DNA of 64,000 nt, from positions 9,736,501 to 9,800,500 of the forward strand of contig OY987244.1 of NCBI GenBank assembly GCA_963920765.1, in the 5' to 3' direction. The notes below the pieces were generated by a model. The model made no database searches, was not told the origin of the DNA, and worked only from the letters and a program-made list of their open reading frames with translations. A program made the translations under genes and the position numbers. The stretch comes from Ulota crispa. Its lineage: Eukaryota; Streptophyta; Bryopsida; Orthotrichales; Orthotrichaceae. This document shows positions 2,213 through 48,361 of this stretch, in pieces; the first letter of the stretch is position 1, and the number at the start of each line of letters is the position of its first letter.

Positions 2213-2468
2213 TACTGTCCCAAAAATCCTTGAAAAAATGAGGTGGCAAAGGAATTGGAGCTGGTGGGCGTGCGCTTGTCGCTCATGGAGGGCAGAAGGC
2301 CCGTGTTGGGGGCTAGGGACTGGGAGCGTGCATTATTACGGCATTGCGGCCCCAGAGAGAGATGGTCCTGAGGACAATGATCACCAGCCACTTGCTGCAT
2401 GCCACATGGCGACCCGGCCCCGTCCTGCCCCTTCGTTGAGTTATTATTTACTCTAAGTTGATAATTAA
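2213..2468. other. GC-rich non-coding stretch
   Basis: The ~250 bp between two MITEs is clearly richer in G+C and CpG than its surroundings. Short open frames cover it on both strands, but none resembles a known protein. It could be a remnant of a lost exon or promoter; nothing decides this. Confidence 0.35.
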
Positions 2469-3244
2469 CCCCTGAGCGCACAAGCCGTTTTCACAAAAAT
2501 CAGAGTTTTTGGAGACCGACTACTTTGATGCATTGTATCTCAGTCAATTGGATGATTCACAAAAAGTGACCATTGAAAGTAGTGGAGCACCTATTTAGAA
2601 AATGGTTTGTAAATTTTGGGGACAATTCATCGCGGGAGATGGGAGATTATAACATTTGATCAAACAACATGTGATGACAAAACCTCAAGTTTTGGTAGGT
2701 AGTTGCTATTTGATGATTTTTACAAAATTCTATAAGCCCTGGATTCATCTCAAATTTTGTGAGTAGCAAGGTTAGATGTGAACGCACACACTTGTAAATT
2801 ATTGAAGATTGCACTTCTTTTTATGTCAAGTTTTAGGGCTTCAAATGGCTATTGCACGGAAAACAATGACCAGCAGAGTTGATGACGGTTGCCATAATAA
2901 GGGTCTAGAACATGCTTGAACCCTTGCCGACAACTTCCCAGCTTCTACAAAGCTTACACAAGGAAACTTGCAAGGGATATTGACCAATTGTAGCCTGTAA
3001 AACGTTGCTTGCCAGCATGCCCCGTACGGTGGCACCACTCCCCATATGATGTTTTCACCCAATCAAATCTTTTGTAGCACTTGTACAACATTTGGCTTTC
3101 CTTGCCATTACTCCATTGGCATGGACAACTTGAATGCCTTCATAATTGTAGTGTAAAGTAAGACCAAAAAGTTAGATCTAGTCCCTCAAAACAAGGATTG
3201 AAAATACTAAGAGGCAATGTATGGGGCACTAGGGCGCTCAAGGG
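2469..3244. mobile_element. TTAA-flanked piggyBac-like non-autonomous element (copy 1)
   Basis: TTAA (2465-2468) is followed by CCCCTGAGCGCACAAG. The far end, read on the other strand, is CCCTTGAGCGCCCTAG, followed outward by TTAA (3245-3248). A TTAA target with C-rich ends beginning CCC is the signature of the piggyBac superfamily. The 776-bp interior has no transposase. Similar TTAA-CCC(C)T ends recur at 9195-10091, 20368-20450, 21130-22021 and 39750-39979. Confidence 0.6.
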
Positions 3245-3306
3245 TTAAGTTATCTCCCTTCGCACTGAGTTTTGACTTGCGCATGTTCCCCACTAAGCTT
3301 ATCTTA

Positions 3307-3678
3307 AGGTGGGCACACCCATAAGTGTGGAAATAAGGGTTTTGGAGTAGGTAAAATAATTTACTAACTTTGAAAAAACACTGTAAGTTAGGAAATGGAA
3401 ACCAAAAATATTGGCATTAATTTCAAGGTTCCAATTGCAAGCATTTGTTCACAAAGATTTTTCAAAGTCCAAAATCATTTAAATTGTAAGAACCATGTGT
3501 AAGGATGCTAAAAACAAGGCTTGTTGGTTCTTAAATAGTGAGATGGGTACTCAAAATTGTCATGGAGTCACCCACAATCATCACTTTGTCACCCAAAACT
3601 ATCACTTCAGTACCCATAACCACCTTGACTTTGTTAATGATGCCCATGGAGACGTTACGCCCATGGGTGCGGCTACCT
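3307..3678. mobile_element. TA-flanked MITE, AGGTAGGAGYACCCA family (copy 2)
   Basis: The left end is AGGTGGGCACACCCATAAG and the right end, inverted, is AGGTAGCCGCACCCATGGG. TA lies outside both (3305-3306, 3679-3680). At 372 bp it is longer than copy 1 and only its ends are clearly inverted repeats. A short run of ATCACTT/CACCCAC-like motifs (3560-3620) gives an open frame of no recognisable meaning. Confidence 0.65.
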
Positions 3679-3680
3679 TA

Positions 3681-6316
3681 AGCTAGTTGAACTTAGAACC
3701 AATCAAAAACCCTTCTGCTCCAAGCCTCCATCGCTCAACAACAAGTCAGACGGATTAGAAGTTTAGAACATCCACCCACCATTTTGGTAGGGTCACCCGG
3801 CATTGCCCTATTTGGTACGGGCTAGGCTTAGTTTCCACACTAAATATAGCGTTTAGGTTGCCCCAAAATAATTTTTAGACATTTTACACTATATAAGTAT
3901 TTATTGCTGTTACATTGAGTAATTATCTGTATTAAATTTTTTTTTTAAGTCTTGGTAACAACAATGATGCTGCAAAGCAACAAATTAGCTACTTTCATGT
4001 CATAAACCATGTGAAATCTTAGAATTTTAGAGAGTTACATATGCTTTCAAGTAACCAAATGATAAGTCATGAGGTAACTTTCCAAGATGAGGCAACCTAA
4101 TTATCAAGGCAACCATTAGCAATATTTTGAGCCCTCCAGAAGGCCCCTAACTCCACTTGAGAGATGTGCATATAGTGAAAAAAGTTGCCATTTCTGACTA
4201 TCAGAATCTGCCATTTTTGACCTTTGCAATGTGTTATATGATATGCCACGGCGGTTTTAGTATTGTTATTATTATTATTATTTTTTTACTATTTTGTTCA
4301 CCTCCGTTATGTAGCGCAGCACAGTTTTCTAGGGGCCATTTGGAGGGTTCAGAATTTTGCTAATGCTACATGCAATATTCAATGTAGGGGACTTTAGAAA
4401 GTAGGGCAAGAAAGCAAGTAGAGGCCTATAAGTACAATTATGCTCTTGTCTTTGCTCACTAAATGGCAAGCTTCAAGGCAATGGCATGATTAGGGTACCC
4501 AACAACATCCGGAATGCCCAAAAAAACCAAACACCACCTGAAACCCTCATTTTGAACACTTTTTGCAATACATAATATTAATTATTAACATTTTAGCAAT
4601 TTTGACTTCACATGCACCTAGAAATTAGTAAGTGTGCGTATTTTTGACACTTGAAAGGTAAAATTGTAGTTCCTTTATGTTTTATATTGAGCGTGGAGAA
4701 ATTCACTCTAAATTAAAAATTTTAAATATTCAATAACCATTAATTTTAGTATTTTATGAAACAATATACTTGAAATATATGGACCATCCATGTTTGTACA
4801 ACTATAATCTTATTTTCCCAAGTCCTATTAAACAAACTTGTAGTTTGGATGAGTCCTTTACTTTGTTTTGTTGAAATGAGATAGTTCCGGAATTTCTCAC
4901 AAAAGCACTCATCTGGACATGATAACATTCCTTATTTTTAAAAATATTTATATTTTCTACTAATATACAAGTATAATAAGTATGTTATTCTCAAAATATT
5001 AACATCAAAGCACTATCATTAGGACTTAATAAATAGGAGAAGTATTGCAGATAAGGCAGTATAGTAAGGACAAAATTGCCAAATTGCAAATAAACAATCC
5101 TTCTAGCCTTTAGGATACCTTGATTGTGCCATTGCCCTTCAAAGGAATGAATAATACTTAAAAGAACATGAATATAAACTAAAAGCACATGATAGCTTGA
5201 GAGCCCACCACCTAAATGATCTTACATGATTATTCCTATTTTTTTGAGAGTTTTGTGGAACCTATCCATTGAGGGATGAAATTTAGAAAATGCCAATATT
5301 AGGAAGTAGCAAAGTGCAATGCATGACGTGTTTTCCCAAGCTTTTGGGAAAAATAATGACGTGCATGTGAATACCACTTTAAAATTCATATGGTCATAAA
5401 AAGGTGTTAAGATGTTCAATTGTGCATTGCAAATGGTCCTTCATCACCCAACTCACCTTTCATACTTTTAAGAACTTCTTGTAACGACTCAAGAGTGTGA
5501 CTTTGAATGTGTGGAAATGTTGTCTCCTCTCCCCACATTTGACAATGTACTTCATTTTTTCCATGACTTTGAAAGCAACTGAGGTTTTTTTGGTTTGTCA
5601 AAAACTCACATTGAAGATGCATGGTTGTTACTGTGGACAAGATATGGTTACTGGACAACATAGCGTAACACAAGAAACAAACAACATGGATAGATGTGTC
5701 CATCTTCTTGAGTTTTTTGGGTCTTTTTAAGAATTTTGACTTAGAAAAAGAAAAATCAAATTATCATTTTTCACTTTTAGTATTTGATATGGCTTTAAAT
5801 CCACATTTCAACTTTATGTTAGCAACAATGAGTGTCACCAGCATGTACAAAGTATATTTTTGTGTCATTTTTACCAATTTTAAAATCAACTCATACATTG
5901 CACGGACCATGAGTCCATTGCATGGTCTACTTTAACGTCTTTCTATTTTGACCTAGAATCCTAGATTGAGCATTATTGAACAAGATCCAAGTAGTATCCC
6001 ACCGTTCAAATTGTATCCTAAGATTGAACAAGATCCAACAGTCAAGATTGTGTCTGCTAACGTTGGTGAAAGAAGAGCCAAGTTATATAAAAAAAGAGCA
6101 ATCCTCTCTGCTCCGCTCTTGTGGCTAGAGTGCTAGCTGGACATGTTATTTCTTGTAACAGGCTAATGTACTTTCACATTGCCTACCTTGGCCTGTGAAT
6201 TTTAACATGAATATTGAGAAACACACCGTCAAGAACCTTAATTAAATTGTGCAGTAAAGAAGTAGAATGAAAAACTCGGGGAAAAACTTTATCAGTTTGA
6301 GGTGCGCCAAAGGCCA
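3681..6316. other. AT-rich gene-free spacer
   Basis: No exon, RNA gene or clear mobile element was recognised in this 2.6 kb. It has a short ATT microsatellite near 4265-4285 and scattered open frames of up to ~95 codons on both strands, with no protein-like pattern. Confidence 0.5.
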
Positions 6317-6568
6317 TATTTGTTCATTTGGAAACTATGTTCAAGTTTGGGACTTCTGAAGGTTTAAGATGGTCACCTTAAACTCAGTTTTAGGTTTAAG
6401 CAACATTTTTTTGATACACATGTCCTCATCTAGGAAGAGGAATTTGCAAGGGAAAAAATCTTAATGACTTATATTGAATCTGATACCTTCTAATCTGATT
6501 TAAGGTAACTTTTTGGGTTTACGGTGAAGTTCAATTTGAGAACCGCATTTTCCCAATTTAACGAATAT
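6317..6568. mobile_element. MITE family F (TATTYGTT ends), copy F1
   Basis: The left end is ATATTTGTTCATTTGG and the right end CCAATTTAACGAATAT, i.e. inverted repeats. The interior shares a diagnostic block with copies at 7557-7786 and 56865-57118: ACACATG-CCTCA, GAGGAATTTGCAAG, AAAATCTTAATG, then AATCTGATACC and GATTTAAGG. The ~250-bp length is nearly constant among copies. It is non-coding. The target duplication is not clear for this copy. Confidence 0.7.
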
Positions 6569-7138
6569 CGACTTGCCAAAACTAACAACAAATTCGACGA
6601 CTTTGTATAAAAGTCACTCCGAACAAAAATGTTGTGAGCAATTAAGCGTCCTTCGTTAATGTCCCAAAGCCTGGTCAGGGAAATCAATGCCGATGGACGT
6701 CAAGCATGCATCGATGAGGACCTTGTCAAAGCAACATCACGTGAAACAGTACCAACCACTCCAACTGCAGGAACGGACTACCGCAATGCAAAGTGCCAAA
6801 GGAATCATGTGCAAGAGGCGAGGTTCTTTTAACCTAATCGATACATATATATATATATCTTGCGATTGCGAAGCTAGCACTGTACGTGTCGTCACAGTCA
6901 GTACCAGAACAACGCATTGTGGGCTTCATCAAAAGAGACACACATCAATGGCAGCAAGTCCTTGGCTAACTGCATGCAAATGCGTGCACGACAACTGATC
7001 CGCTCTCAGCCTCTCACAGCCACATTCTCAAGCCTTTCCATTGATAGTAACGTCAACACCGTAACAGTTATGGTTGGCTCATTTCAGACTGCCGAACTCT
7101 TTGGACGGGCAAGAGGGCGGGCGGACAAATCAATCTAT
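6569..7138. other. GC-richer spacer, no gene recognised
   Basis: About 6690-7130 is richer in G+C than its surroundings and carries a CACGTG hexamer (6738-6743), but its overlapping open frames (for example 6687-6998 and 6917-7396) do not resemble known proteins and read into flanking MITE sequence. It may be a remnant promoter or exon. Confidence 0.35.
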
Positions 7139-7239
7139 AACACCATATTCATTAAATTGGGAAAAGTTGATTCCGAAGTTGTACCCGTCACCTTAAATCC
7201 AAAATGTTACAAAATTTTCTTATTAATGAATATGGTGTT
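7139..7239. mobile_element. short inverted-repeat element related to family F
   Basis: AACACCATATTCATTAA at the left faces its inverted copy ending GAATATGGTGTT at 7239. CTAT lies directly outside both ends (7135-7138, 7240-7243), a possible 4-bp target duplication. At only 101 bp it cannot encode anything. The ATTCATTAAATTGGGAAAA beside the left end matches the ends of family F. Confidence 0.55.
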
Positions 7240-7418
7240 CTATGCCCTGGAGACAGTCTTTGAGGCGTTACAGTTGACTACTTTTATTGTGTGGTGGGTT
7301 GAAATGGGGCAAGAGCTCTACTTACTAGCACCATCTTCAAGTAATTGGGACAATATCCAAATTTTGACACTCATGGTAATCAAAGCCATTAAGTAGTCAA
7401 GTTGAATGTATGCAACGC

Positions 7419-7905
7419 CATATTGAGAAAAAGGATAAATTTTAGGACTTTTGAATTTTGCATTTTTGAAAATATCTTGGTGATTTAGAGTGAATTTTAG
7501 GATGGTTCCTTCAAAATCTTAGATCAATTCAAATCTTAGATCAATGATATAAATACCATATTCGTTGAATTGGGAAAAACACTACATTTTGGGACTTTTG
7601 AAAGTTTTAGGTGGCCACCTAAAACTAAGCTTGCAATGTTGTTTTTGGTACACATGCCCTCACCAAAGAGGAGGAATTTGCAAGAGAAAAAAATCTTAAT
7701 GGTTCAAACTAAATCTGATACCATCAAATTTGGTTTAAGGTGGAATACAAAATGATACCTCTGTTTTTCCCAATTTACCAAATATGATGTTTATAGGTTC
7801 TTGAAAGAATTATCATAAAATTCACTCACAATCGCCAAAATACCCACAAAAATGCAAAATTCAAAAGGCCCAAAATCTATCATTTTGCCCAATTTAACAA
7901 ATATA
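7419..7905. mobile_element. family G inverted-repeat element, split by a nested family-F insertion
   Basis: The outer arms are 7419-7556 and 7787-7905. In opposite orientation both carry GGACTTTTGAATTTTGCAT or GGCCTTTTGAATTTTGCAT and a GAGTGAATTTTAKGAT block, so the element was one inverted-repeat MITE before copy F2 (7557-7786) landed in its middle. A free-standing relative lies at 45190-45430. Confidence 0.6.
7557..7786. mobile_element. MITE family F, copy F2 (nested)
   Basis: The ends CATATTCGTTGAATTGGG and CCCAATTTACCAAATATG are inverted. The interior has the family block (CACATGCCCTCACC, GAGGAATTTGCAAGAG, AAATCTTAATGG, AATCTGATACC, GGTTTAAGG) in the same order as F1. It sits inside the family-G element, so it is the younger of the two. 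Confidence 0.7.
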
Positions 7906-8196
7906 GGGGCATTGCCTACTAAATGAATGCATGTCGAATTGTTAATTTCATGTGGTAGTCAAATGCGAATTTTGAAGAATAATAAAACTGTGAAAAAGTA
8001 AACCACGATAATTATTAATCAACTTCAATCTACGTTGGTAGCACACATTGATTTCTTGATTTTTGAGAATTGAAGTTTTCCCAATTTATTGAATGTGGTG
8101 AGTATGACAAACCTTGAATAATAATAAGAATTGAGGCTTTGACGACTGAAATCAATGAGATTGTGATCAGATTTATTAGAAATGGCGTGATTCCGA

Positions 8197-8526
8197 GTGC
8201 CAGAATTGTGTCACACTAGGGTTCAGAGCTCTGAAAACCCTGTTTGGCATCTATCTGATGACAAGTGGCTGGAAAAAACATTGACCCGCTCTCAGAAAAG
8301 TGTCAGGTTGGTACATGTTGGTGGAACCACTTGCAGGCAGGCTTTTGAGAAAGGAATTCCACGCAGGCAAAGGGGACCCAGTTACACTGAGATCGTATTG
8401 CCAACTTTGTTGAAATGGCTGTATGCCATCACTTTGCCGCGGTTTCGAACGTGTTGTTTAATTTCAAAATCCAAAATTAAACCTGATCTTGTCCTAGTCT
8501 ATGGACTGAACTTAGACCTTTTATGA
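8197..8526 (+). other. unassigned open reading frame
   Basis: A 110-codon frame, unusually long for this spacer, lies in a GC-richer island (about 8170-8470). The predicted peptide is basic, with motifs such as KWLEKTLTRSQKSVR and FEKGIPRRQRGPSYTE, and resembles no family I recognise. Its first codon may not be the true start, and no splice signals or neighbours support it. It could be a gene relic or chance. Confidence 0.2.
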
Positions 8527-8618
8527 AGATTGTGTCACCACTTTATCCTTAGCCAGTTTAAAGAAATTGACAATATGTTATTGTTTCCAGCTTGCCATTC
8601 AAAAATTGGCGCATTTAG

Positions 8619-8795
8619 CAAACTTTTGTTAATTCCCCTCTGCTGGTTTCCGGAATTTTTCACATTTTTCTTGTGATTTGTTAAACATTTATGTCTATTT
8701 CTTTTATGAATTTTCCCTCAGTCACATTTCCCTGTTAATTTACAGGGAATTTGTAAGCAAATCCCTATAGGGAAATCAAAATGAGTTTGTTGTGA
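8619..8795. repeat. degenerate direct repeat, copy A (partner 10120-10533)
   Basis: GCAAACTTTTGTTAATTCC and, further on, TTTCCCTGTTAATTTACAGG and AAATCCCTATAGGGAAATC recur in the same order about 1.5-1.75 kb downstream (GCAAACTTTTGTGAATTTCC near 10121; TTTCCCTGTACAATACACAG near 10470; AAGTCCCTACAGGGGAATC near 10501). The pair brackets the TTAA-flanked element at 9195-10091. It may be an old duplicated segment or decayed LTRs. Confidence 0.45.
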
Positions 8796-9194
8796 ATTTG
8801 GATTTCATGGGTTCTCAATTAGGCAAGACACTTAGACACGAGCCTGGAGTTGGAGCGGTTTTGAGACACTCATCTCAAATCTCGAATCGGTACCCACAAC
8901 CAACATCATCATTTTAGGGTTCTGAAATTTCAAATTTTCAACTGCACAGCTCAAAAGACTCATTTGAGCATTTCAAAAGCACAAATTATGGCACGTCAAG
9001 TCGTCAACATCACAGGTTGGTATATTGAAGTTCTCCATTCAAGGAATATGAGGTTTCAGCTGGTTTCAGCTGTATTGATAAATGTCCTTTTGGAAAGCTG
9101 ATATTTAAATTGTCAAATCGGCGGAACTTCACGCATTTATTGGCACCTTTTGAGAAATGTCACAATGTTGGCCCTCTGAAAGAAGCCAGGTTAA

Positions 9195-10091
9195 CCCCTA
9201 AATGCCCAAGGCACCAGATTCTGGTGTTCAAAAAATTTCAGCAAACTTCGAAACCCTGTTGAAGTTACAGGTTTTATTGTTTTGAGGTTATTTTTTGTAG
9301 AAAAGCTGCTTGTTGAAGTTAGTTTTGCCATTCAATCTCAGCTTCTTTCATATCTTATTCGATTTATTTTTGGTGGAAGGTTAACTACAAGCATACATTT
9401 TTTGTCATGAATAGTGTTGTGAATAATGTCACAAAGCCTATGAGAAGTTGCCACATTGAAAAGGTGGGCATCAAGTTGAGCAAAAGGTGAAGATGTCCCT
9501 TGGGCACTCCCTTGGGCAATAAGGGCCTTTTTACTGAAATTTTGACATTTAACAAAATCTAAAAGTGCTTTTGGACTAATTTCACTTGGAATTTCTTTGT
9601 TATAGAAATTAGAATCCTTTCACCAATGAATTTTCTTTCATTCGTAATGATTTTTGGTCAATAATTGAAATTGAAAATTTCTTTTTATTAGACAATTGTG
9701 TTTTGACAGTTGCATTGCAGGCTCATTTGTGAAATTGTGGTCATGGATTTGGAAGAGGGGCCATTGGTTTTGAAGTAAAAACAATAAACACTAAAGCATC
9801 CTAAGTGGTTGTCTCCCAATTTTGTATTTAATAATTGCCAATATGCATTAGAAGTTTTGGGCAGCTAACAAAATGCAAAAATTTCTATACTCATCGTCAT
9901 TCAATCACAAATTTCTTAAAATCTGCATGGCCATTTGGGATTCTTTTTGGGAGTGCCATTTAGAAACCTTAGAGTTCAAGATTCAACGGTTACAATTTCT
10001 TTTTGATGTTTAATGATGATCTTATAAGGACAATTCAAAAACTTCAAAACTACCTTTTGAAAACGAGAAAAACACCCTTGGGCATTTAGGG
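9195..10091. mobile_element. TTAA-flanked piggyBac-like non-autonomous element (copy 2)
   Basis: TTAA (9191-9194) precedes CCCCTAAATGCCCAAGG. The far end, inverted, is CCCTAAATGCCCAAGG next to TTAA (10092-10095). The terminal repeat is thus about 16 bp with one C length difference. The 897-bp interior is AT-rich and has no transposase frame. Confidence 0.65.
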
Positions 10092-10119
10092 TTAACAAAA
10101 CTGACTCAGGTTCATCACA

Positions 10120-10533
10120 GCAAACTTTTGTGAATTTCCTTGTCGTGTCAAGAATTCTTCACATTTTCCCTACAAATATTCACAAATTTGTGGTTTTCCT
10201 TACATTCTACTGTTTGTATTGAATAGGGGATTTCAAATATGCTGTTCAGCAGCAATTTTGTCCACGTGAATGAAATTGGTGAATAACTTGACCAACTCAC
10301 TGCGTGAACAAGCCATGATAACCTCTTGAGGTAGTGACAGCATATGCACCAATGAACAAAAATTCATTCACAACCATTTGTTCACTGTTTTTTTTGACAT
10401 ATCTGAACCCCTATTCATTAGTTAAACATTTCCGTGTATTTCTTCTATGATTTTTCCCTCTGTCCCATTTCCCTGTACAATACACAGGGAATTCATATGT
10501 AAGTCCCTACAGGGGAATCGAAAAGAGTGTGCT
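10120..10533. repeat. degenerate direct repeat, copy B
   Basis: Second copy of the segment at 8619-8795, in the same orientation and interrupted by additional sequence. The shared blocks around TTTCCCTGT...ACACAGGGAATT and GTCCCTACAGGGGAATC are themselves short stem-loops. No gene is visible between here and 10.74 kb. Confidence 0.45.
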
Positions 10534-10744
10534 GTGTTACACAAGAGGCGTAATTTGGCACTTCGAGCTGATAAAACAGGAGGATCGACGTTCAGTAGTT
10601 GATCGGAGAAGTTTTTCTGGCCATAGAACCTTCATGGTCACCAATTGATCAAGGGGAAATACTTCATGAACTCCTGCTAAATTTGAAAGACAGCACAAAC
10701 ATGATATTAGATCTCAGACGGATAGGCTGATGATCGGCGTGTAA

Positions 10745-11643: not shown

Positions 11644-11649
11644 AAGTTA

Positions 11650-16727: not shown

Positions 16728-19053
16728 ATCTTACCACAATTATTGTTTAAACAAGATTTACCTATATATTGTCGCGGACAATCCAAAGTTCAGATCTAAA
16801 AACCGTTTTCATGAGGAAAAGATAATTGGAAGTTTTAACCAACCTGTGAGCATTGAAAATTACAAGGGGAGATCTGTGATAAGGTCCAATTTTGGATAAT
16901 TTGGTTCAAAAAATGCACAAGATATTGGAATATCTCTCCATGGCCATGTACAATCCAAATTTGCCTTCACAATCCATGATTAGTTAAACAGTCGTATTGT
17001 ATCCCGTATCCTTTTTATTCTTCTGTAGACAATGCATTTCACTCAACCTCTGTAATTGCACATCCGTTGTACATCCTAAATATACCTCATGCTTGTCGAG
17101 TACAAATCTTAGTAAACAATTTCCACTTCTACATGTCAATTTGCCTAGTGCACTTATTAGTCCATTGTCCCCCTTGACGTACCCCAAGGTAGTGCAATTA
17201 CAGAAGATTGAGTCCATGCATTGACGATGGCATTACACACATTTGAACAATTGGATATACCTTCATGTTTTCCCATCTAGATAAAACTTGGTCTTAGCCC
17301 TGCGCCTACTTATCCTTTTCAAGCAGTATTGTTCATATTAATGTTAATTTCCATGGCAAAACTTAGGTCATAAGTGCAATTATCTCTTGGTTTTAATGGT
17401 AAAACCCCAATTACGAATTGCTAAACAAAGCTAAATTTGGTTGAAGAGTGGGAGGCTTCTTAAGTTGTCAAAATATATAAATCATTAGAATTTGTTAAAA
17501 TATAAAGTATGATTAGCTCAATCTATGCAGAGTGTCATGATTTTATTGATGAGTGTTGGGCTCCCTACTACAAGAAAGTGTTATTTATATTTATATATAT
17601 ATATACATATACATATACTTATACTAATACTAGTGTGTACATATATTTCAATAGTTATGTCCTTTATTAAAGATTTGATGTTCAAAGAGTTGGTACTACA
17701 TAGTTCATGTTTGCCGACTATATACTCCCTCTATCTCCCAAAGTTGGTTGATACACAAATTGTTTTGCAATTAATGTTATTTTTTGAGAAGCAAAATCTT
17801 GCATTGTTTAAGAATACCATATTTGGCAACAAAAGTATGAAAAGGTTTTTTAGTTTATCACTAGATTACTTTTGTCACCAAACAAGATACTTTAAAGCAT
17901 TGTAAATTTGGAGGATTTTGATTCCAAAATATGACATTAATTGAAGAAGATATTGTATTTTGACCAATTCTTGTAAGACAAAGGGGAGCATATTTTTCAT
18001 TAATGTGGTCCCAAAATGTTTCTAGCCATAATTGGATGAAAATGGTTCTAGTAAATCAATCCTCCAAGAATGTTTTATTTAGTGGGATATCATTAAATTT
18101 TTTACTTGTAAAGGTTAAATGGTTGTGAATAGCATTTGGTGTCAAATTTGAGAAACCAAGGGAGAACTCTTTATGTAATCATTTTTAGTGGTAGTGAGTG
18201 AAAGAAGGTTTGGAAGTGAAATGCATGTTGTTTTTAGGAAGTTTAGATAGTGGTTTAATAGAAAATCCATCTAGGTGGTTGGATAGGCAATAGGGTTTAT
18301 ATGTGTGTGAATTCAAGTGCTTAAGATTATAGTTTACAATGTTATAGAAGATGTATCTTATTGAAGATTTTCCATTCCCATTGATGTAAAAATCTTTGAA
18401 TATACTATTTGGGGCTTTCTTATGCAGGCATACAAAGAAAATAGGTGTCATGACTCCATTGTACATCCTGCAATGACAAGGTACCTATATGAAGATAGAG
18501 ATGCTGTTGTGAGTTGATGAAATCTATGTTAAGGTAGAAAATCCCACTGGAAAGTTAGCCAAACAAAATTGCAAAAAAAATAGTTGAAATTGGAATCTAT
18601 TGGATAAAAATTAGCCATACTTTCAAAAGAATCCAATTATAGCATAAATATAGGCAATATTTATTGCTTGCACATGTAAAATTGTAGAAAATGGGAAATG
18701 CCAAATTTTAGCAAGTGAAGCTCAATATCTCAGACTCTACATTCACACGAGAGTTTTGTGACTTATTTTTTGTTTTCTACCAAAATCTTCCAAATTTGCT
18801 ACGCATTGAGGTACAAAACCGGCTATGTTTATTTATGAATGATAAAAGTTAGTGAGTTGTGAGAATTTCTACTTTGAAGTTTCATTACAATTTAGAAGTC
18901 GTCATTGATTTTGTACTTTTTAAACTTGTTGAATCTTGTATATTCTTGGAGGTACACCAAGTATCGTACAAATTCCCCTATGTTTTGTAAATTCTATTTT
19001 GTGTTTTTGGTATATGCCATATGAGTATTGACTTTTTCTTAACACATGTTTAA
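16728..19053. other. AT-rich gene-free spacer
   Basis: Downstream of the nine-exon gene. It contains short TA-rich runs (near 17590-17620) and several open frames shorter than 130 codons with no protein-like pattern. It may carry the 3' UTR of that gene at its start; no convincing polyadenylation signal stands out. Confidence 0.45.
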
Positions 19054-19384
19054 CCCCTAAACAATGAGGCCGACGTTTTCTATCCCCAATTATTAAAAGA
19101 ACAATTTGTAGGACCAAAAAAAAAATTCTCATTTGAATTGTTTTTAGAAGTGATCATACATACATGGTTCATCATGAAAGGTAAAAAATAATCTCATCAA
19201 ATACATTCATATTTTAGGTTATCTAAATTGTGAGAAGATTCACAAACACGGTGTTAGGTCCCATGTTGTCCTTCTTGCAACTTTCATGAGGTCAGCATGC
19301 ACTATTAACTTTTGCAACTTTTAGAAACAATATCAATATGGGTGGATACTTGCCACACCATTATAGAACACTGTAGAGCTATTA

Positions 19385-19952
19385 GTGGGTGTCAAACCTG
19401 GCTATTTCCCACCGGACAAGTTTGGGTGGGTCCACCCCACAACTCAACCACGTTTTGAAGTTATAAGGCATGATAACTTCATCACCCACCTCTAGAGGTG
19501 GTTGAAAACTTAAACTAGTTGTGGCCTCTCTTTATTAAAGTTATCAAGTGATCTTATAGCTCTGTTTTAGAGGGAGATTGACAAATTGTGATACTAAAGA
19601 GGGAGACTGTGATACTAAAAAGGGAGGGTGTGATACTAAAGAGGGAGGGTGTGATATTAAAAAGGTTAGGGTGTGATATTACAAAAGTAATTGAGATTTT
19701 AGTAGTATGATTAGTAATAGCACTAACCTCTTTAATGTCACACCCTCCCTCTTTAGTATCACACATCAATCTTTGTGACATTATCCCATACATAAGTTAT
19801 GAAGACTTATTCAAATTTTTATCAAATAGTTTGTGAAACATTGCAAGGGCCATAACTTTGGAGAATTTAGTTCAGCCACCACCCATAACTTTATTAAAAA
19901 ATGGGGACAAAGTTATCCCGAAACCTTGAAAAATGCCAGGGTTGACACCCAC
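19385..19952. mobile_element. TA-flanked MITE with GTGGGTGTCAAMCCTGGC ends
   Basis: The ends are GTGGGTGTCAAACCTGGC (left) and, inverted, GTGGGTGTCAACCCTGGC (right), with TA just outside both (19383-19384, 19953-19954). At 568 bp it is non-coding. It holds a separate tandem and inverted array in its middle (19565-19770). A lone TTAA-CCCCTAAA end at 19050-19061 lies just to the left. Confidence 0.7.
19565..19770. repeat. tandem array of GAGGGAGGGTGTGATACTAA units with inverted copy
   Basis: About five ~21-bp units of the form GGGAGGGTGTGATAYTAAA run head to tail at 19570-19680. An inverted copy of two units follows at about 19727-19766, so the region can fold into a long hairpin. It lies inside the MITE at 19385-19952 and may be the insertion of a second small element. 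Confidence 0.65.
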
Positions 19953-20367
19953 TATTGTAGAAGGGTAGTCATGTTGACCAACCAAACTTTCAAAGGTTAA
20001 CTATAGATTTCTTGACTCCTAGTACTTTGTTTTAGACAAGAGCTCATGAAACAAATTTTCCCATCTCAAGCACTTTAGCATGGGAATTACTTCCAGTTTT
20101 TCAAGTATTTGCGGAGATGGGGAGTTGGTTCCCACCTTTCAAATAATAAATTTATGCTTGTTGCACATGAGTTAGTAGTAGTACTTGAACTACCATTTCA
20201 TGATGGCGGGCTTTCACGAGGATGGGCTTATGAACTCTAAAAATTTCTTATGCTTGATGGTGCATATTGATCTTATGAATGTGCACATTTAAAAATAGTT
20301 GCAAGGTGGTAAAGTGATATAGATGAAGTTAGTATGCCTCGCCTGTACTTTTCAGGATCTTTCTTAA

Positions 20368-20450
20368 CCCTTAAGCGCTGGGGTCACAGTGCCTACACAG
20401 GCCCCCGTGTATGAGCAGGGACATTTTTCGTCCCTTTGATCTTTTAGGGG
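20368..20450. mobile_element. short TTAA-flanked element (copy 3)
   Basis: TTAA (20364-20367) precedes CCCTTAAGCGCTGGGG. The other side ends CTTTTAGGGG followed by TTAA (20451-20454). At 83 bp it is either a deletion derivative or two unrelated ends. The right end could instead pair with the orphan left end at 19050-19061 (TTAA-CCCCTAAA), giving a ~1.4-kb element that contains the TA-flanked MITE. Confidence 0.4.
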
Positions 20451-20547
20451 TTAATTTTTAGTAGCTTTTCATCCTCTTTTTTCATTATTTTTCCTTTTTC
20501 TCTTCCCTTTTCAAATTTCAAACTTCAAAATCTTGATGAATGAGATA

Positions 20548-20860
20548 AGGTAGGAGCACCCATAAGCGTCAGTTCAAGGGTTTTGAACATGATGAGTATT
20601 AATAAACAGCTAGCAAATTATAGGATCCTACTAGGAACAAAAAATTAATAAGTTTGCACTTTCAAATGTATTAGTTGGGTACTGTGAGAATAAGTTGTGA
20701 ATTTTTAAAGAGCAAACTACCATTGCACCCATAACCAACACTAAGGTTTCAAGTTCACATATTGTACATCCTTGTAATTACATTTATTCATTTTCATAGA
20801 TTTCCAAGGTTTCAAAGGTAATGATTATGGGGACACTAATGCTTATGGGTGTTCCTACCT
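20548..20860. mobile_element. TA-flanked MITE, AGGTAGGAGYACCCA family (copy 3)
   Basis: The ends are AGGTAGGAGCACCCATAAGC and, inverted, AGGTAGGAACACCCATAAGC: 19 of 20 bases identical. TA flanks both (20546-20547, 20861-20862). The 313-bp interior is non-coding and unlike copies 1 and 2, so copies share ends rather than bodies. Confidence 0.8.
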
Positions 20861-21129
20861 TATGTCCAATGCCAATGCTTGACACTTGATGCTTTGTAAA
20901 ACATAAAATTGAATTTCTTGTGTTAGTAAAATACTTTAAATTTTACCTCACGGATAGATACTTCTTGCTTTATAATAAAGATGCATAGATTAGGATTTTA
21001 CAAACTTTTGAACAAAATAAAGGAATTGTTTTATAGCATCTGAAAGGTGCTCTAAACTTAATCCAAATCTCTTAATCAGCTTCAAGACATTTATGACAAT
21101 CTTATACTACAATTTATTTGTTTCCTTAA

Positions 21130-22021
21130 CCCCTAAAGGACCACTTGTCCCTACGATGAAAAAATGGGATTTTGGGCAAGGCCATGCTACTACAATTTAT
21201 GATCAAATTCTACAATTTGCCTCCAAAGGTAGAAGTTTGCAAAAGTTACATGGGAGAACAATTTTTACTAAATTCCAATTTACTATTTAAAAGTTATAAG
21301 GGTAAACATGTGAATTTTAGTTGGAGGGGCAACTTGGGCATGCCATTTTTTATTGACTTCTCCCAAGGGGAACCAAAGAAGGGATGGCCCTTCATTGGAA
21401 TCTATCCAAAGCAATAATGTACTAAATAAATACATTATTGTATTTGTTAAGTACATTAACCTTTGAATTGCAATAACTACTAGAGGTTTGGTTTTTTTTC
21501 TAATTTTCTTTCTTGAGATTGTCAATGAAGCTAAACTCTTCCAATCCGCTGCTTGGATTTTTATTTTCTTTAATATATCTTTAGAAATCTTGGTTGGCAA
21601 AAAACCTCAGTGTAGTGTGAATTTCCAGCACATGTTTGCAATGCACGGCCATGGAGGGTGTGTTCCATGTCTTGGATGATCACAAAAACTTGTAGAGATA
21701 CGCCTAACATGATTTAGAGCATGTTAGACAAATCTCTTCAGCACCTATAGTGCAAAAAGTGTTCACCACATGTGGTCAAAGGCACCTGAAAATTTTGGGC
21801 AGGGATAAAAAAAACTTTATGTACTACCTTCAAATGATCATTTCTCTCAATCCGTACGGTCAAACTTCACAAAATTTTCATGGTATGTTCTTGAATGAGT
21901 CTTCTACAAGATCCTAAGGTTAGATTTGATCTTTTTTGAAAAAGATTGTTTTTGGGATCAAATCAGTAAAAATGACAGTTTTGAGTTTTTTTTGAAGAAA
22001 AAGTGCTTGGTCCTTTAGGGG
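21130..22021. mobile_element. TTAA-flanked piggyBac-like non-autonomous element (copy 4)
   Basis: TTAA (21126-21129) precedes CCCCTAAAGGACCACTTG. The right end, inverted, is CCCCTAAAGGACCAAGCA, a perfect 14-bp terminal repeat. The right flank reads TTCA, one change from TTAA. The 892-bp length is close to copy 2 (897 bp). Open frames inside (21172-21417, 21283-21600 minus) show no transposase motifs. Confidence 0.6.
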
Positions 22022-22025
22022 TTCA

Positions 22026-25017
22026 TGAAATTGCAAAAGACATCTGAAGCTTGTTTCCAAAAAGGAGTTGGCCAATTTTTTTGAACTGTATGATTTCCTA
22101 TGAGTAGGAGTTCAACTTGTTTTCACTTTCACTACCAGTTTTGTTACTTGTTGTCATAGATAAATATTCTTACAAAAACAAAAATGATTAGGACAATGGC
22201 TTTTACGCTTGCAATTTAATTGCATGGTTTGTACTTTATTATAGCCGAAGTGATGATATTGCAATTTAGATGCCGTTTTGGATGTTGCCAATGGATTACC
22301 AATTTTTGTTAAATATTCTGGATGGATTAGTCAATGGTCACACACTAGTTTCAATTTCTTTTTGAAGTCAAACTTAATAACAATTAAATTCAGTTTAAAG
22401 GTTGTCTTTAGAAGAAAATACAAATGTATAGGTAAAATTTAAGTTTTGAAATTGTTGAAGGAGAAAAGGAGTTACCTATATATATATATATATTTTTTAT
22501 TAAAAGTAACAGAGAAACTAAATGATTTCAGTCTTTCATGAAATTTTAAAATGCAGTTCTTGTTAGATTTATTAATGTGAAAAAAGTGAATATCATCATA
22601 ATTACCATACCAGCAATGCATTTTGCACATTTTTTATTTATTTTTAAGAAAGTTACCAAATCCTAAGTAACCATTGGTCGGAGCTTGCATTATTTTTGAG
22701 TGTTGATTGTGACTACATTGTTACTTTGAAAATAGGATATGCTTCTGAATTAGCCTAAAATGACAAAGGGTTTAGGAAATAAATATTTAATTGCATTCTT
22801 AATTTGGAATAAATATTTGTTCAAAAAAACAAATAACATTTTCATACTACACCAAGATCATTGTAACTCATAGGTGAACAATTAGGTTTTCTTTTATTAC
22901 ATGTATTCTATTAAATGTGTAAAAAAGAATTGAACATAGTTTCTTTGGATAAGTGGAATTTCATGATGTTATATAAAATTTTGCACCAATATGTGAACCA
23001 ATTAAATATGTATTTAGCATAGATTGCAAAACATGTTCATAAAACTTTATAATACCAAATTGTAATAAAGATATTTAGCAGTAAAAACTAAATTGTTAGA
23101 TTTGATAGCTACAAACCTTACCTCTATTGCATCCTTCACTTTGACTAACTTCACACCTTCTTACTTTGTCTATTCCACATATATTGAATTAATTAGTAAA
23201 GCAAACAAAGACACAAAGTACTAAAACAACTTAAGACAAAGTTCACGAAGCACAATATTAATTCATTTACTATCAATAAGTGACAAGGCAAATAAAAAAG
23301 TAATAAAATACATGTGAGACATGTCTTTAAAACAATTCTTAGCTGATGGATGCTTTACAATGTTTAATTGGCACCATTTTGGGACCCCTATAGCAATGTT
23401 ATTTTTTTGGGCCTTGTGAGGCTACCTTGTCAGAAATTGGACCAATGCTCTTCTCTCCCTCTTGAAATTCTCCATTCCTAGGAGGGCATGTGGCAAGTGG
23501 TAGGTGAAAAAAAACAATGCCCTATAGGTCCCAATCTTGGCCTCTAATTGATTGCTTATTTAAAAAGTGCTCTAAGGCCTATACACTAGGATCAAAATTT
23601 GGTTGTAAATTTAGAAATGCAATTTGCATTAGCATTACAACCTGGACATGCATGGTTATAAAAATAACTTGTAAGCTAGTACCTACTTTGCTACCAACAA
23701 GCTTGTAAATCACTTTTGATAACACACATAAATGAGGCTTACCAAATTCTAGTCAAAGTCCAATCTTAGACAAAAAGTATTCTATTGTGTAACATTAAGT
23801 TGTTGCAACTTAAAATTAAAGATAAACCCTAAACTCACTCTTGTACAAAAACTCACCTGCAATGGGCAAGAGAGAATAGGAGACAAGATTGTGCTACGCA
23901 CTTGCACACTGTTGTTTCCATTACATTGCATGAAAACATGAGCGTAAAAAGTATAATCCATTAATTTACATTGCAACCTTCACGTTGAAACCTCTAGCAG
24001 GTTTATGTCGAGAAGTAGGCACAAGATTCTTTTGCTGCTCCTACTATTGCTTTTCCCTCTCCTCTTTGTGGTGACTATGCAAGAAATTGCTAAAATCATT
24101 CAAAAGATCCCCACCATGGTTCTCTCTACTTTATTGAACTCTACAAAAGATAAAAAGAAAACTCCTTCCCAGACCTCCTCTTTTTCCAAACAAATATCAA
24201 CAAACAACAATCAAACCAATAAATCTATATCAAATGAAACAAAAAACAAGCAAGTACAACCAAGCCAACACCATAGTCAAGAGAAGGTACAAAAAAGCCT
24301 AAATTCAAATTTGGAAACCTTAATTCTCTATGCTTGGCACAAACTCCTCAAATCCTCCATCTATTGACAAAGGTCACAACGCAAATTAAAGCATACTAAA
24401 ATCCCTTGACAAAAATTGCAACCACAAAACACAAATTTGCAATAGGGATTTTGTTGGACACAAGAGGTGTTGCCGAGGAAAGTGAGAGAGAGAATGTGAA
24501 CAAGGAGAATTGGAAAGAATGAAGCAAAGAATGAAGCAAAAAACAAAACCAAAGGGAGAAAACACGTTTACAAAACAAAAAATGCTAAATGAAAACTTTA
24601 GAAGTACAAGCGCCTATCATGCAAAAAAAACCTAGAAATGCTGGCGATGGCATGCAATGTGTATAGGGTGGAACCAAATAATAAATTTAATAGAAGAGGG
24701 ATTGTAGACCAAATTCTATCTATTGTAAGAATAATTCGAGGTAGTAGTAATAATTTGTTCACAAAAAATTAACAAAGAAAGGTGCAATTGTTCAAATCAA
24801 CAAGATTTGTGTGCCAAACGGTGGCTCTTGTAATTTTGGACATTTATTTTTTAGTTCTTTGTCATTCTAGACACCCTGCTTACTTTGTAGTGTTAATTAT
24901 AATGAAATTCAATTAAAATTCTAAAACAATTAAGTTTGATGAAATTTATTATGTGTAAACCATATGTTTTGTTTATATAAAATAACCTTAAACATAGCTA
25001 TTAAAATATATATTGGA

Positions 25018-25020: not shown

Positions 25021-25069
<49 letters not shown>
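25021..25069. repeat. (TA)n microsatellite
   Basis: An uninterrupted TA dinucleotide run of about 49 bp. Confidence 0.95.
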
Positions 25070-25072
<3 letters not shown>

Positions 25073-28370: not shown

Positions 28371-28444
28371 GGTCAATCCTTGACTTCTTCAAGGCAGCGT
28401 AGTCCATAACTCATTTTGCACCTGGTCCACAAGAGTTATGGTAT

Positions 28445-29830
28445 TTGGAAATCCTTAGAGAGAGGTTGAATTACATCATTGAGGTTAGGTTGTTTGGTAG
28501 TAAGCTTTGGTGTTCATTTGTGGTGTGTATGAGTGCTTAGAAGGGATTGATTTGCATCATTGAACTTAAGTTACTTGGTATTGAGCTCTGGTTTTAACTT
28601 GTGGTATGTAAGAAGACTTACAGGAGGCTGATTTGCATCAATGAAGTTTAGTTTGTTTAACATTGAGATTTGGTATTGATTTAAGGGTGATTGGAGGAGT
28701 TTAGAAGGGCCAATCTGCTTCATTGAAGGTAAGTTGCTTCCCATTGAGCTTTGATGTTGATATTAGGGTTTTTAGAAGAGTGTAGAAGGGCTGATTTTTA
28801 TAGTACAAGTTAGGTTGTTTTGCATTGAGCTTTGTTGTTGCATTTAGGGTGTTTAGAGGAGTTCCAAAGAGCCAATTTGCTTCATTGAAGGTAAGTTGCT
28901 TGTCATTGAGCTTTGATATTGATATTATGGTGTTTAGAGGTGTTTATAAGGGCTAATTTGCTTCATTGAAGATAAGTTGCTTGCCATTGAGCTTTGATGT
29001 TTATATTAGGGTTTTTAGAAGAGTGTAGAAGGGCTGATTTTTGTAGTACAAGTTAGGTTGTTTTGCATAGAGCTTTGTTGTTGCTTTTAGGATGTTTAGT
29101 GGAGCTCAAAAGAACCAATTTAGCCTCATTGAAGGTAAGTTGCTTGTCATTGAGCTTTGATATTGATATTATGGTGTTTAGAGGTGTTTATAAGGGCTAA
29201 TTTGCTTCATTGAAGATAAGTTGCTTGCCATTGAGCTTTGATGTTGATATTAGGGTTTTTAGAAGAGTGTAGAAGGGCTGATTTTTATAGTACAAGTTAG
29301 GTTGTTTTGCATTGAGCTTTGTTGTTGCATTTAGGGTGTTTAGAGGAGTTCCAAAGAGCCAATTTGCTTCATTGAAGGTAAGTTGCTTGTCATTGAGCTT
29401 TGATATTGATATTATGGTGTTTAGAGGTGTTTATAAGGGCTAATTTGCTTCATTGAAGATAAGTTGCTTGCCATTGAGCTTTGATGTTGATATTAGGGTT
29501 TTTAGAAGAGTGTAGAAGGGCTGATTTTTGTAGTACAAGTTAGGTTGTTTTGCATAGAGCTTTGTTGTTGCTTTTAGGATGTTTAGAGGAGCTCAAAAGA
29601 ACCAATTTAGCCTCATTGAAGGTAAGTTGCTTGCCATTGAGCTTTGATGTTGATGTTATGGTATTTAGAGGTGTTTAATAGGGCCCATTTCTATAGTTGA
29701 AGTTAGGTTGTTTAACATTGAGATTTGGTGTTTGTTTTATGGTGTTTAGAGGAGTTTAGAAGGGCTTATATGTATCATTAAAGTTAGGTTGCTTGTCATT
29801 GATTTTTTATGTTTAGATATGATTTCTATA
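28445..29830. repeat. ~81-bp tandem repeat with 243-bp and 487-bp higher-order periods
   Basis: The monomer consensus carries CATTGAAGRTAAGTTGCTTG, CATTGAGCTTTGATGTTGAT, ATTAGGGTTTTTAGAAGAG and GAAGGGCTGATTT. About 16-17 units run head to tail. In the middle, three monomer types form a ~243-bp trimer (the GGCTAATTTGCTTC unit recurs at 28951, 29194 and 29438). Alternating trimers (TTCCAAAGAGCC versus AGCTCAAAAGAACC) make a ~487-bp hexamer that is present twice and is nearly identical. Edge units are more diverged. Stops occur in all frames, so it is not coding. Confidence 0.85.
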
Positions 29831-29929
29831 GCAGTTTAGAAGGACTAAAGACCAACACTTATTAGAAGGTGAAGCATGCGGAGATTGGCCGCATACTGTG
29901 TATTGCCCTAAACTGCACTTTAATGTAAT

Positions 29930-35051: not shown

Positions 35052-35111
35052 TCTTGTTTGTCTGCTGTTTAGTTTCAAAATTGGAGTTATAATAGAAAAA
35101 AAACAAGGATA

Positions 35112-36056: not shown

Positions 36057-36058
36057 TA

Positions 36059-36937: not shown

Positions 36938-37066
36938 ACTAGTGGACCCATGTACCTACTGTTCTAGAGGAGAGCAGTCACGAAATGAGGTCCTTGCAAA
37001 AAAATTAACATGAAATTTGCCCCACATTCTGTGTCCCCATCTAGTGTCTCCCCATCCTTCCATCTA

Positions 37067-37194
37067 CTAGTAGGAAACTTTGTTAAAGTCAACTTACATT
37101 ACATGATGTTTTTTTGCTTCTAACGCAAATTTTTGCATTAGAAGCAAGAAAACATCATGTATTTTATGTTAACTTCAACAAAGTTTTCTACTAG
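37067..37194. repeat. 63-bp-arm hairpin
   Basis: CTAGTAGGAAACTTTGTTAA...GCTTCTAACGCAAA pairs with GCATTAGAAGCAAG...CAAAGTTTTCTACTAG with about eight mismatches and almost no loop. It may be a MITE inserted in repeat R1. Its transcript could be a small-RNA precursor. Confidence 0.75.
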
Positions 37195-37352
37195 TGATCC
37201 CATGCCTCCATCCCATGTTCCCATCTCATGCCACCATTCCATGTTCCCATTCCATGTTCCCATTCCATGCCCCCATCCTATGTCCCCATCCCATGCCCCT
37301 ATCCCATGTCCCCATCCTCCATCCCGTGTCCTTCCCATTGCATGGCCCCATC
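37195..37352. repeat. CCCATG minisatellite with G-quadruplex potential on the minus strand
   Basis: Units of about 12-15 bp (CCCATTCCATGTT, CCCATCCCATGTC and variants) repeat about eleven times. The minus strand therefore carries runs of three or four G separated by short loops (GGGATGGGGACATGGGATAG). A comparable but shorter run lies in copy R2 near 42355-42445. Confidence 0.8.
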
Positions 37353-37539
37353 CTCATCTTGTTTCTCTCCATTCCACATGACATTTCACAATTACAATGA
37401 CATTTCACAATTTCAAATGACTTTTCACTTTCCAATAAATTTTCACAATTGCAATGTCTTTTCATTCACAATTTCCAATGACCTCTCACCTTTTCATGCC
37501 CTCCCATCTTGTTAAGAGAATCCCATGCACTCTCATCCC

Positions 37540-37604
37540 CATGATTTGGTTACATGATTTGGTTACATGATTTGGTTACATGATTCGGTTACATGATTTG
37601 GTTA
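37540..37604. repeat. 13-bp tandem repeat, five units
   Basis: CATGATTTGGTTA is repeated five times head to tail with one substitution (CATGATTCGGTTA in unit four). Confidence 0.9.
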
Positions 37605-37697
37605 TGGAACTCCTTTCCCTCGACCAATCACAAATTTTTAAATCATACTTTGCTTGCAAGTATCTAACTAATAGAACCAAACTTATTATATAAATTT

Positions 37698-37729
<32 letters not shown>

Positions 37730-38665
37730 GATAGATATATATAGATAGATATAGTCTATCTGTCTATGCGTTTGTTTGATAATTAGTGATTGGCCGAGGG
37801 CCAAGGAACAAAGTGAAAAAGAAGTGAAAGGGGAAGGGAATGGGTTTTAGGTGATAAAGAGACAATTTTTTTTAAACCATTGAATGATATTTTTATTTAA
37901 ATTTATAGTTCAAGTTCAAGAGGGTGGAGAGGGAGATAAAAGGCTAACGTCATTGGCTAATTTTTAAATTGAAATTGAAATTGAAGTTCAAGGGGTTGAA
38001 GTCAAGAAAATTTAAATTTTTTATCAATCCTTTCTATGAATAGCACATAATTTGTTTCTGGTTTTTTTAAATGGGGCTACCCAATGAATTTTCCTTTTCC
38101 TTTTTCCCTCTCTAATGGAATGTATGACACTAACAGAGAAGTATGTCATGAGACATTTCATTTGAACAAAAAAAAAAGGTTTTTCCTAACTAATTTTTAA
38201 ACTAAAAATTCTTTTAGATACTATTCTTGCAATGTCATTTGCAAACAAAAGATTGTAAGTACAAGTGAGTTACTAAAGTTTCAAATTTTATGCGTGTGGA
38301 TGTTTAAAATTTATATTGCAATATAGGTTCTATCTAAGGTGGATAATAAAAAAATTGTATTTTTTGCAAAAAAAAACTACAACTTAAAAAATAAACACAT
38401 GAGAAATTCACATGTATAATATGTAGTAATTTTTAGATTCTAAATAACATAAAAAATGATGATGAAGATGAAGTTGGTAAGATTTAACATTGGAGACATC
38501 AAGTTGGCAAAATGGACAAGTGAAGGATTTGCAATGATGGAGCATGGAAAAATATTATTGAATATGAGTATTCAAAAGAAGAAGCATGGAAGAAAATGAT
38601 TGAATGTGAATATTTAGAAATTTTATATAAATAGATAATATTTGATGAACACTAAAACTTTGATT

Positions 38666-38841
38666 ACACTAGAAGGAACCTATGTTTTTTATAACAAATT
38701 TTTTTGGACATCTACTCATTTTTATGTTACAATTGATGTTAAAACTAACGTCTTGATGTTAGTTTTAATACCAACTGTAACATAAAAACAAGTGGATGTC
38801 CAAAAAAATCCATTACAAAAAACACAAGTTTCTTCTATTGT
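38666..38841. mobile_element. hairpin MITE with ~82-bp arms
   Basis: ACACTAGAAGGAACCTATG and the inverted ACAATAGAAGAAACTTGTG begin arms that match through TTTTTTTGGACATC and GTTAAAACTAAC, leaving a loop of about 8 bases (GTCTTGAT). The element is 176 bp with no coding capacity. TA-like flanks are ambiguous. Confidence 0.7.
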
Positions 38842-39745
38842 TATAAAAACAATACCATAAATCTATAAACTAAAAAATCTCATGTATGGAGCCAAATCGA
38901 CCAATATTTAAAACAAAGAATAAGCATAACCACCCATTATTCATTTAGCTTTGCTAAATATGCAACAAACTTGTATATATAAAATAAGTGGATCCGTGCA
39001 CCTGCTATTTTGGCGAAAGGCAATAAATCTACTTACAATCTAACCACCTTGTAAACTAGATTTTGTCTTTTTCTACAAAACCTAAGAAACACTAGTATAG
39101 GGGTTCTTTAAGGGGAATGGTGGAAATAGTCTATTGTTTTGTGACTAAAGTCACTTTCAAATAGAAATTGGTTTAAAAGGTTTAAATAAAAGGAAAGCAC
39201 TCTTGTTCTGAGGTTAGTTGTAGTGATCACTTGCAATCCATTCCTTATGCATTAGACACAATGAATGAAGTCACAGTCCTGTCTAGTGTTCTAAGAGGAG
39301 GTCAATTAATCTTGGTCAAATAGTCAAGTTGGTCAATTTGACTTTATGCATGCTGTATATAGACCTGATCAAAATGCCAAGATTATATTTGAATTTATAA
39401 TACACATAATTTTGTTATTGCTCTTTTTAAGGTTTTTAGTCAATAAGTCTAGTCACCACTACTTTTTGAAGCTTTTTCTTCTTAATTATTATCAAATGCA
39501 AATGCCTAATGTATCAGTCTTTTAGGGCAATATTTCAATTGGCAATTATTCACAGTTTGCACAATTAAATAATTTATAAGATTTACAAAGTGGTACGGGT
39601 TTCAGGCTTCTAGGTCAATTTTCCACTTATACACATTAACATCTACATGCAATAGTTAGTAAATAATTCCTTTTTGTTTATATTCAAGAATTTTATATTA
39701 AAAATAATGTGTAAAATCAATTAATACTATGAATTTAATCTATAT
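38842..39745. other. gene-free spacer
   Basis: AT-rich sequence with no recognised gene. A fragment resembling the start of repeat family R (GTGGATCCGTGCACCTGCTA) lies near 38988. Confidence 0.45.
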
Positions 39746-39749
39746 TTAA

Positions 39750-39979
39750 CCCTTAAACACCCATAGTAAAGGTATAGTATACATAATGGTATACAATTGT
39801 TATTTATAACCAACAAAAAGTTTTAATTTGGGATCTTGACTAGCTCATTAGAACAACATTGATTTATATTCTAACTTCTTTGTTGATCTCAAATATGATA
39901 AAGGTGTGGATGCACTCCAAATACAAAAAGAATACACCACATTGTACAGGTCGCAAAGGGCTTCCTTGTCTTTTAGGGG
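39750..39979. mobile_element. TTAA-flanked piggyBac-like non-autonomous element (copy 5)
   Basis: TTAA (39746-39749) precedes CCCTTAAACACCCATAG. The right end, inverted, is CCCCTAAAAGACAAGG next to TTAA (39980-39983). At 230 bp only the outer ~8 bp match well, so this copy is weaker than those at 2469 and 9195. Confidence 0.5.
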
Positions 39980-39983
39980 TTAA

Positions 39984-47720: not shown

Positions 47721-47754
47721 TATTTGTGATTTTCCCCATTGTTTTTATTAAAAC

Positions 47755-48331: not shown

Positions 48332-48361
48332 AGCTTTGGGGCGATTATTGCGTTTGTTGAT

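Follow-up and report, generated by a model that had tools for sequence, protein, structure and literature searches.

At five places in the 64,000-nucleotide stretch of DNA analysed here (C3:9736501-9800500, the window), inverted ends that start with CCC stand beside the tetranucleotide TTAA, a combination characteristic of piggyBac elements. The piggyBac transposon is a widely used tool for seamless excision in animal genetics, and the elements have been described chiefly from animals and fungi. Our analysis of the window and of the genome around it (274,817,297 bases in 157 contigs) suggests that the five units, E1 to E5, belong to the piggyBac superfamily and are non-autonomous (MITE) insertions in the genome of a land plant, a reading to which we give a probability of about 94%. 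The superfamily is already known and its label is already used in plants; the surprise lies in the scale and in the linked evidence.

The identity of the host was examined through two genes. LEAFY (PF17538) is represented in the genome by two exon matches (best E value 8.4e-51) and by none in 14 control genomes; this gene is not known outside streptophytes. A casein kinase 2 alpha gene with several exons lies on the + strand of the window at about 60250-62500. Its matches to 13 CK2-alpha chains score 495-514 bits and those to the 47 other sequences shown (of 87 matched) 434-444 bits; we take the two groups to be plant and mainly human proteins, respectively. Because LEAFY is present and the CK2-alpha matches fall into this pattern, the host is a land plant or a close relative. 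The window also contains a tandem array at 28454-29848, with an 81-bp unit organized in 243-bp higher-order repeats, and an LTR retrotransposon at 46152-56722. The frames of the latter encode reverse transcriptase, RNase H and integrase domains together with a DUF4100 match, and its two 2160-bp long repeats are identical, so it is a recent insertion.

The five pairs of ends were read directly and lie where the preliminary description of this DNA had placed them (Table 1). All ten ends start with CCC, followed by C or T, in line with the CCC/CCCTT or CC[C/T]T ends that, together with TTAA, are given as piggyBac hallmarks in the available portions of two papers (PMC10813416, PMC2872659). TTAA stands on both sides of four of the five elements as claimed, the exception being E4. 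Three of the elements, as had also been proposed, have longer terminal repeats; their measured range is 11-17 bp, close to the 13-16 bp first given. The repeat of E1 is 11 bp long with one mismatch, and that of E4 is 14 bp and perfect. The agreement between the two ends is limited to 7 bp with one mismatch in E3 and to 8 bp with one mismatch in E5.

Table 1. Elements and ends in the window, and transposase elements elsewhere in the genome. Lengths of E1-E5 include the flanking quartets unless stated otherwise.
Feature	Position	Strand	Length	Ends and flanks
E1 (MITE)	2465-3248		784 bp including both TTAAs	CCCCTGAGCGC / CCCTTGAGCGC
E2 (MITE)	9191-10095		905 bp; 897 bp without TTAAs	CCCCTAAATGCCCAAGG left, CCC-TAAATGCCCAAGG right, the right end with one C fewer; TTAA on both sides
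E3 (MITE)	20364-20454		91 bp	asymmetric, CCCTTAAGCGC / CCCCTAAAAGATC; TTAA on both sides
E4 (MITE)	21126-22025		900 bp; 892 bp without flanking quartets	CCCCTAAAGGACCA; TTAA at left, TTCA at right
E5 (MITE)	39746-39983		238 bp	CCCTTAAA / CCCCTAAA; TTAA on both sides
Orphan end	19050-19069	+		TTAACCCCTAAACAATGAGG; without convincing partner
C3 transposase element	contig C3		5,027 bp	TTAA-CCCCTCATCGCCAA / TTAA-CCCTTCATTGCCAA around PF13843 match
C2 transposase element	contig C2		5,102 bp	CCCTTGACCGCCCA / CCCTTCACCGCCTA around PF13843 match
C8 transposase element	contig C8		5,586 bp, from coordinates; about 0.7 kb between L080 and L005 unread	CCCTTTAGGGACC / CCCTTTAATGACC around PF13843 match

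Nine sites of the motif TTAACCCYTRA were counted in the window, whereas 60 order-3 Markov simulations gave 0.1 on average and never more than 1. This motif was picked after the data had been seen, and the genome-wide tests described below therefore weigh more. The shorter TTAACCC has 17 sites in the window, of which nine are ends of E1-E5, one is the orphan end and seven lie elsewhere (four of them within the two LTR copies). The best pairing of the orphan end is with position 20454, which is part of E3; this pairing was rejected, because the stretch 20364-20454 recurs in many copies as a unit of its own.

E1-E5 show the features of MITEs: they are short, multicopy and non-coding, with shared ends, the coding scan of E5 covering two frames. 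Over 2401-10202 and 19000-22102, a six-frame search found no Pfam match above the cut-off, a single DUF5478 match staying below threshold (E value 0.037); nor was any found in the two of six frames scanned in the E5 region (39700-40051). The preliminary description regarded them as one family, a view that we reject. In pairwise alignments in both orientations, judged against 40 random pieces of the window, only a 19-bp end common to E3 and E5 exceeded background. Since the interiors are otherwise unrelated, E1-E5 are several MITE families. The near-equal sizes of E4 and E2 (892 and 897 bp), which had been noted correctly, do not indicate kinship; the two have no common interior and the likeness is thus a coincidence.

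All five elements are repeated across the genome. For each, 40 candidates were scored from a larger first-look set (2186 for E2, 1995 for E4, 2111 for E1, 3035 for E5 and 96 for E3), so the copy counts, which include the query, are lower bounds. E1 has at least 40 matches with 90-100% identity, 34 of 40 spanning positions 1-784 from TTAA to TTAA. E2 has at least 41, of which 36 of 41 span the full 1-905, and E3 at least 40, of which 33 of 40 span the full 1-91; at least 40 were found genome-wide for E4. Of at least 43 E5 matches, 40 extend to the right end (236-238), whereas only seven extend to the left end and 36 fall short of it, indicating that the left part of the window copy is atypical of its family. 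The listed copies of E1, E2 and E4, the queries aside, are mostly full-length at 86-92% identity, with one partial copy at 74%. Among 30 copies each, the mean pairwise divergence is 9.3% for E2 and 11.8% for E4, and the median distance from the majority sequence is 5.7% and 6.8%, respectively; the samples are the best-scoring copies for the window elements and not random ones. Divergence of several per cent among the sampled copies means that the main bursts are not very recent.

Tabulation of the flanks ties the ends to TTAA. In 30 fetched copies of E2, TTAA borders 27 of 30 left edges and 26 of the 28 right edges that were assessable (53/58 in total); in 30 copies of E4 it borders 22 of 24 left and 25 of 28 right assessable edges (47/52). 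Non-TTAA quartets thus occur at 10 of 110 assessable edges, with 10 further edges not assessable, and two of these ten misses belong to the window's own copies, namely the right end of E2, which is shifted by its missing C, and the right end of E4. For E3, TTAA is present on both sides of the window copy and of two others fetched (L075-L077). Beyond the TTAA, left flanks are unrelated among copies, averaging 27% identity across 37 bases for E2 and likewise for E4. Three E5 copies (L072-L074) have common flanks and therefore represent one insertion that was copied along with its surroundings. The large inverted repeat at 45521-45835 in the window (134-nt arms, 93% complementary, 47 nt apart) resembles the flank of one fetched locus, L031, and L031 itself has matches at several further loci.

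The same linkage holds for the ends without reference to full copies. Exact copies of the 17-base E2 end number 2,520 in the genome, and 2,118 of them stand directly after TTAA (as an exact 21-mer); the reversed control gave 0 in both cases. A more permissive form of the end, CCCYTNANNGMCC, was designed to take in several families and has 33,240 sites, of which 27,103 directly follow TTAA; the reversed pattern has 619 and 7. The combined pattern TTAACCCYTNANNGMCC is thus found 27,103 times in the 275-Mb genome, about once per 10 kb, against 7 for its reverse. Neighbouring pairs no more than 2.5 kb apart among the first 100 E2 ends listed are convergent in 18 cases, divergent in one and in the same direction in two. 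The spans of the 18 convergent pairs cluster at 637-664 bp (13 pairs) and 898-938 bp (4 pairs), with one at 1844 bp, and E2 therefore seems to exist in two main sizes.

TTAA is palindromic, so a single copy cannot separate a target duplication from a part of the element's end, and only empty sites decide. The flanks of 60 copies were joined around one TTAA and compared with the available sequence for paralogues. The junction was spanned by 42 paralogue alignments from 11 of the 60 copies. Empty TTAA sites, which the preliminary description had recommended seeking, were found for 6 of these 11 testable copies (L010, L013, L029, L034, L042 and L067), with a single TTAA in the paralogue in 9 of 42 alignments. 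Five of the nine have no gap within 10 bases of the junction; they come from three copies, one of E2 (L034, three alignments) and two of E4 (L042 and L067). The clearest case is L034 against L035, which agree at 84% over 777 columns with one TTAA, and L010 and L014 also show a single TTAA at this junction at 74-75%. In the other 33 spanning alignments the paralogue has a different quartet at the junction, which in most cases departs from TTAA by one or two bases (TTGA, TCAA, TAGA). Diverged repeats should show such departures, but these alignments are not themselves support and were not counted. Several copies directly adjoin another element. At L045 and L047, E4 stands next to an E1-type end with one TTAA in common. 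Similarity to window E1 extends up to the common TTAA in the flanks of L047 and L068, as does similarity to window E5 in that of L054. The elements thus insert at each other's TTAA. Together, the linkage of TTAA to the ends, the flank tally and the empty sites show, at the level of sequence, that TTAA is a target site duplicated on insertion.

Transposase sequences are present elsewhere in the genome. The piggyBac transposase domain (PF13843) has at least 120 matches genome-wide, with a best E value of 1.3e-73, in a search that scored 116 of 528 candidates; no match was found in the 14 control genomes. The matches listed are spread over contigs C1-C11. In agreement with the preliminary description, no transposase was found in the window: the 120 matches listed all lie outside it. 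For the domain at one locus, L001, with stops written as X, comparison with solved structures gave E values of 5.4e-27 against the piggyBac transposase 6x67 and 8.8e-24 against piggyBat 9c0f. Counted along the alignment rows for L001 only, an aspartate faces each of D268, D346 and D447 of 6x67, which we take to be the catalytic aspartates. Stop codons are present in 110 of the 120 rows listed, including the three resolved elements below, with introns not excluded, so no working transposase copy is established.

Nine transposase loci were inspected for ends. Three were resolved into elements of 5.0-5.6 kb in which the piggyBac domain lies inside CCC-type ends (Table 1). L002 has one end only, CCCCTAAGCACCC, a search of L078, L082 and L002 having failed to reveal the left one; L003, L004, L007 and L008 have no TTAACCC end within 1.5 kb on each side of the domain, and L071 has none. 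Ends were thus read at four of the 120 places. Just outside a transposase element, in the joined sequence of L070 and L006, lies a TTAA-bounded unit of 913 bp (317-1229 in L070) with ends CCCTTTAGAGACCAC / CCCTTTAAAGACCAC. It is probably a further MITE family, its ends resembling those of the C8 element. L071 differs in another respect. Its positions 2328-3755 (G000:C4:3591727-3593154) hold an open, stop-to-stop piggyBac-like frame of 476 amino acids with a PDB match at 4.1e-20, and no TTAA-CCC ends were found in the 5.3 kb read. The position of the third catalytic aspartate reads N by eye (GGVNVGDQ), beyond the end of the printed alignment. L071 is a candidate for a transposase gene adopted by the host.

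The ends of E1-E5 were compared over 14 bases with those of the four sampled transposase elements. The best match is 12/14, for the right end of E1 against the left end of the C2 element and for the left end of E5 against L002; it is 11/14 for E2 and E4, 10/14 for the right end of E3 and 9/14 for its left end. The longer transposase-bearing elements anticipated earlier thus do exist, three having the same kind of ends and the piggyBac domain, but none of the four places whose ends were read, out of 120, has the exact ends of E1-E5 (best 9-12 of 14). Judged by sequence, the ends of E1-E5 look like the piggyBac ends of this genome without an exact partner. This lack of identity would fit a different explanation, in which E1-E5 are piggyBac-like MITEs moved by another TTAA-cutting transposase and the PF13843 genes serve their own families only. 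However, the ends were read at only four of the 120 matches listed, spread over C1-C11, and the ends of one sampled element differ from those of another (7 to 11 of 14 bases alike) no less than they differ from the ends of E1-E5 (7 to 12 of 14). We consider such a separate transposase very unlikely.

Besides piggyBac, the well-known superfamily that duplicates TTAA targets is Kolobok, but an origin from Kolobok-type elements is less probable still. They would account for the same duplication and are reported in chlorophytes and red algae (PMC9587614, in the part available), but the accessible text of PMC9587614 and PMC6004289 gives Kolobok termini as 5'-RR and the ends of Kolobok MITEs as AGGRR. 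All ten ends of E1-E5 begin with CCC, on which ground Kolobok was rejected, and the piggyBac domain is found in all three larger elements read to both ends. An autonomous partner from another superfamily, named beforehand together with non-TTAA flanks as evidence against piggyBac, was therefore not what these three elements revealed. The ends might also be no transposons at all, only chance or telomere-like motifs (CCCTAAA) beside TTAA, given that CCCTAAA is present in some ends and TTAA is common (376 in the window). That idea is refuted by the reversed-pattern control, and mostly full-length copies of E1, E2 and E4 in unrelated left flanks (the latter in E2 and E4) also speak against it; its probability is negligible. 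The piggyBac reading put forward in the preliminary description, in contrast, is supported by the TTAA flanks, the empty sites and the PF13843 domain inside CCC-ended elements.

In the piggyBac mechanism that we propose, a DDD transposase of piggyBac type, made elsewhere in the genome, would bind the CCCYT... ends and excise the element at TTAA. The excised element would then enter another TTAA, which would stand on both sides of it. E1-E5 were presumably moved in trans by the transposases found here or by related ones, as suggested by the common kinds of ends in the same genome. By analogy with the studied piggyBac, the chemistry may be of the seamless hairpin type.

The elements resemble the piggyBac superfamily (IFP2, piggyBat; PF13843) in their TTAA duplication and short inverted ends starting with CCC, in a transposase homologous to 6x67 and 9c0f, and in the three aspartates of L001; they differ in their host, a LEAFY-bearing plant. 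The resolved elements are longer than the classical piggyBac of 2472 bp and fall within the 1.23-9.51 kb range of animals given in the portion of PMC10813416 consulted. Coral CMITEs, as presented in the available part of PMC2872659, are likewise small, non-coding and TTAA-flanked, with CCC ends, tandem or nested arrangements and empty alleles. However, their ends are mostly CCCTTT... and not CCCYTRA..., and they are about 100 bp long with a common interior, whereas the elements here measure 91-905 bp and have unrelated interiors.

Plants are not new to the piggyBac label. Within the accessible text of each source, a repeat table for C-fern lists 1,230 PiggyBac copies with 122,417 bases (PMC6890710), a review counts PiggyBac as one of seven angiosperm MITE superfamilies (PMC10004981), another paper places it among plant class II superfamilies (PMC10794571), a survey includes it among the superfamilies found in all its groups (PMC4438587), and one sentence mentions piggyBac isolated from plants (PMC10813416). 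As far as these excerpts go, the earlier plant reports consist of counts or a label only, whereas here flanks, empty sites, transposase and ends are tied together in one genome. Our literature search, which was partial in coverage, found no paper title devoted to native plant piggyBac, and we do not claim absence in print.

A broader picture can be drawn tentatively, and we would give it somewhat less than an even chance. It holds that a land plant has piggyBac as a major native cut-and-paste transposon, with several transposase lineages each having MITE families, at least 27,103 recognisable ends, and at least one transposase gene, L071, perhaps retained by the host once its ends and third catalytic aspartate had been lost.

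A plant genome with piggyBac genes and thousands of ends would provide native plant transposase sequences and a route to asking how piggyBac entered and spread in plants. It also offers a correction for plant repeat annotation, in which TTAA MITEs of this kind may go unclassified. The density of intact ends suggests that these elements have had a real effect on the structure of the genome.
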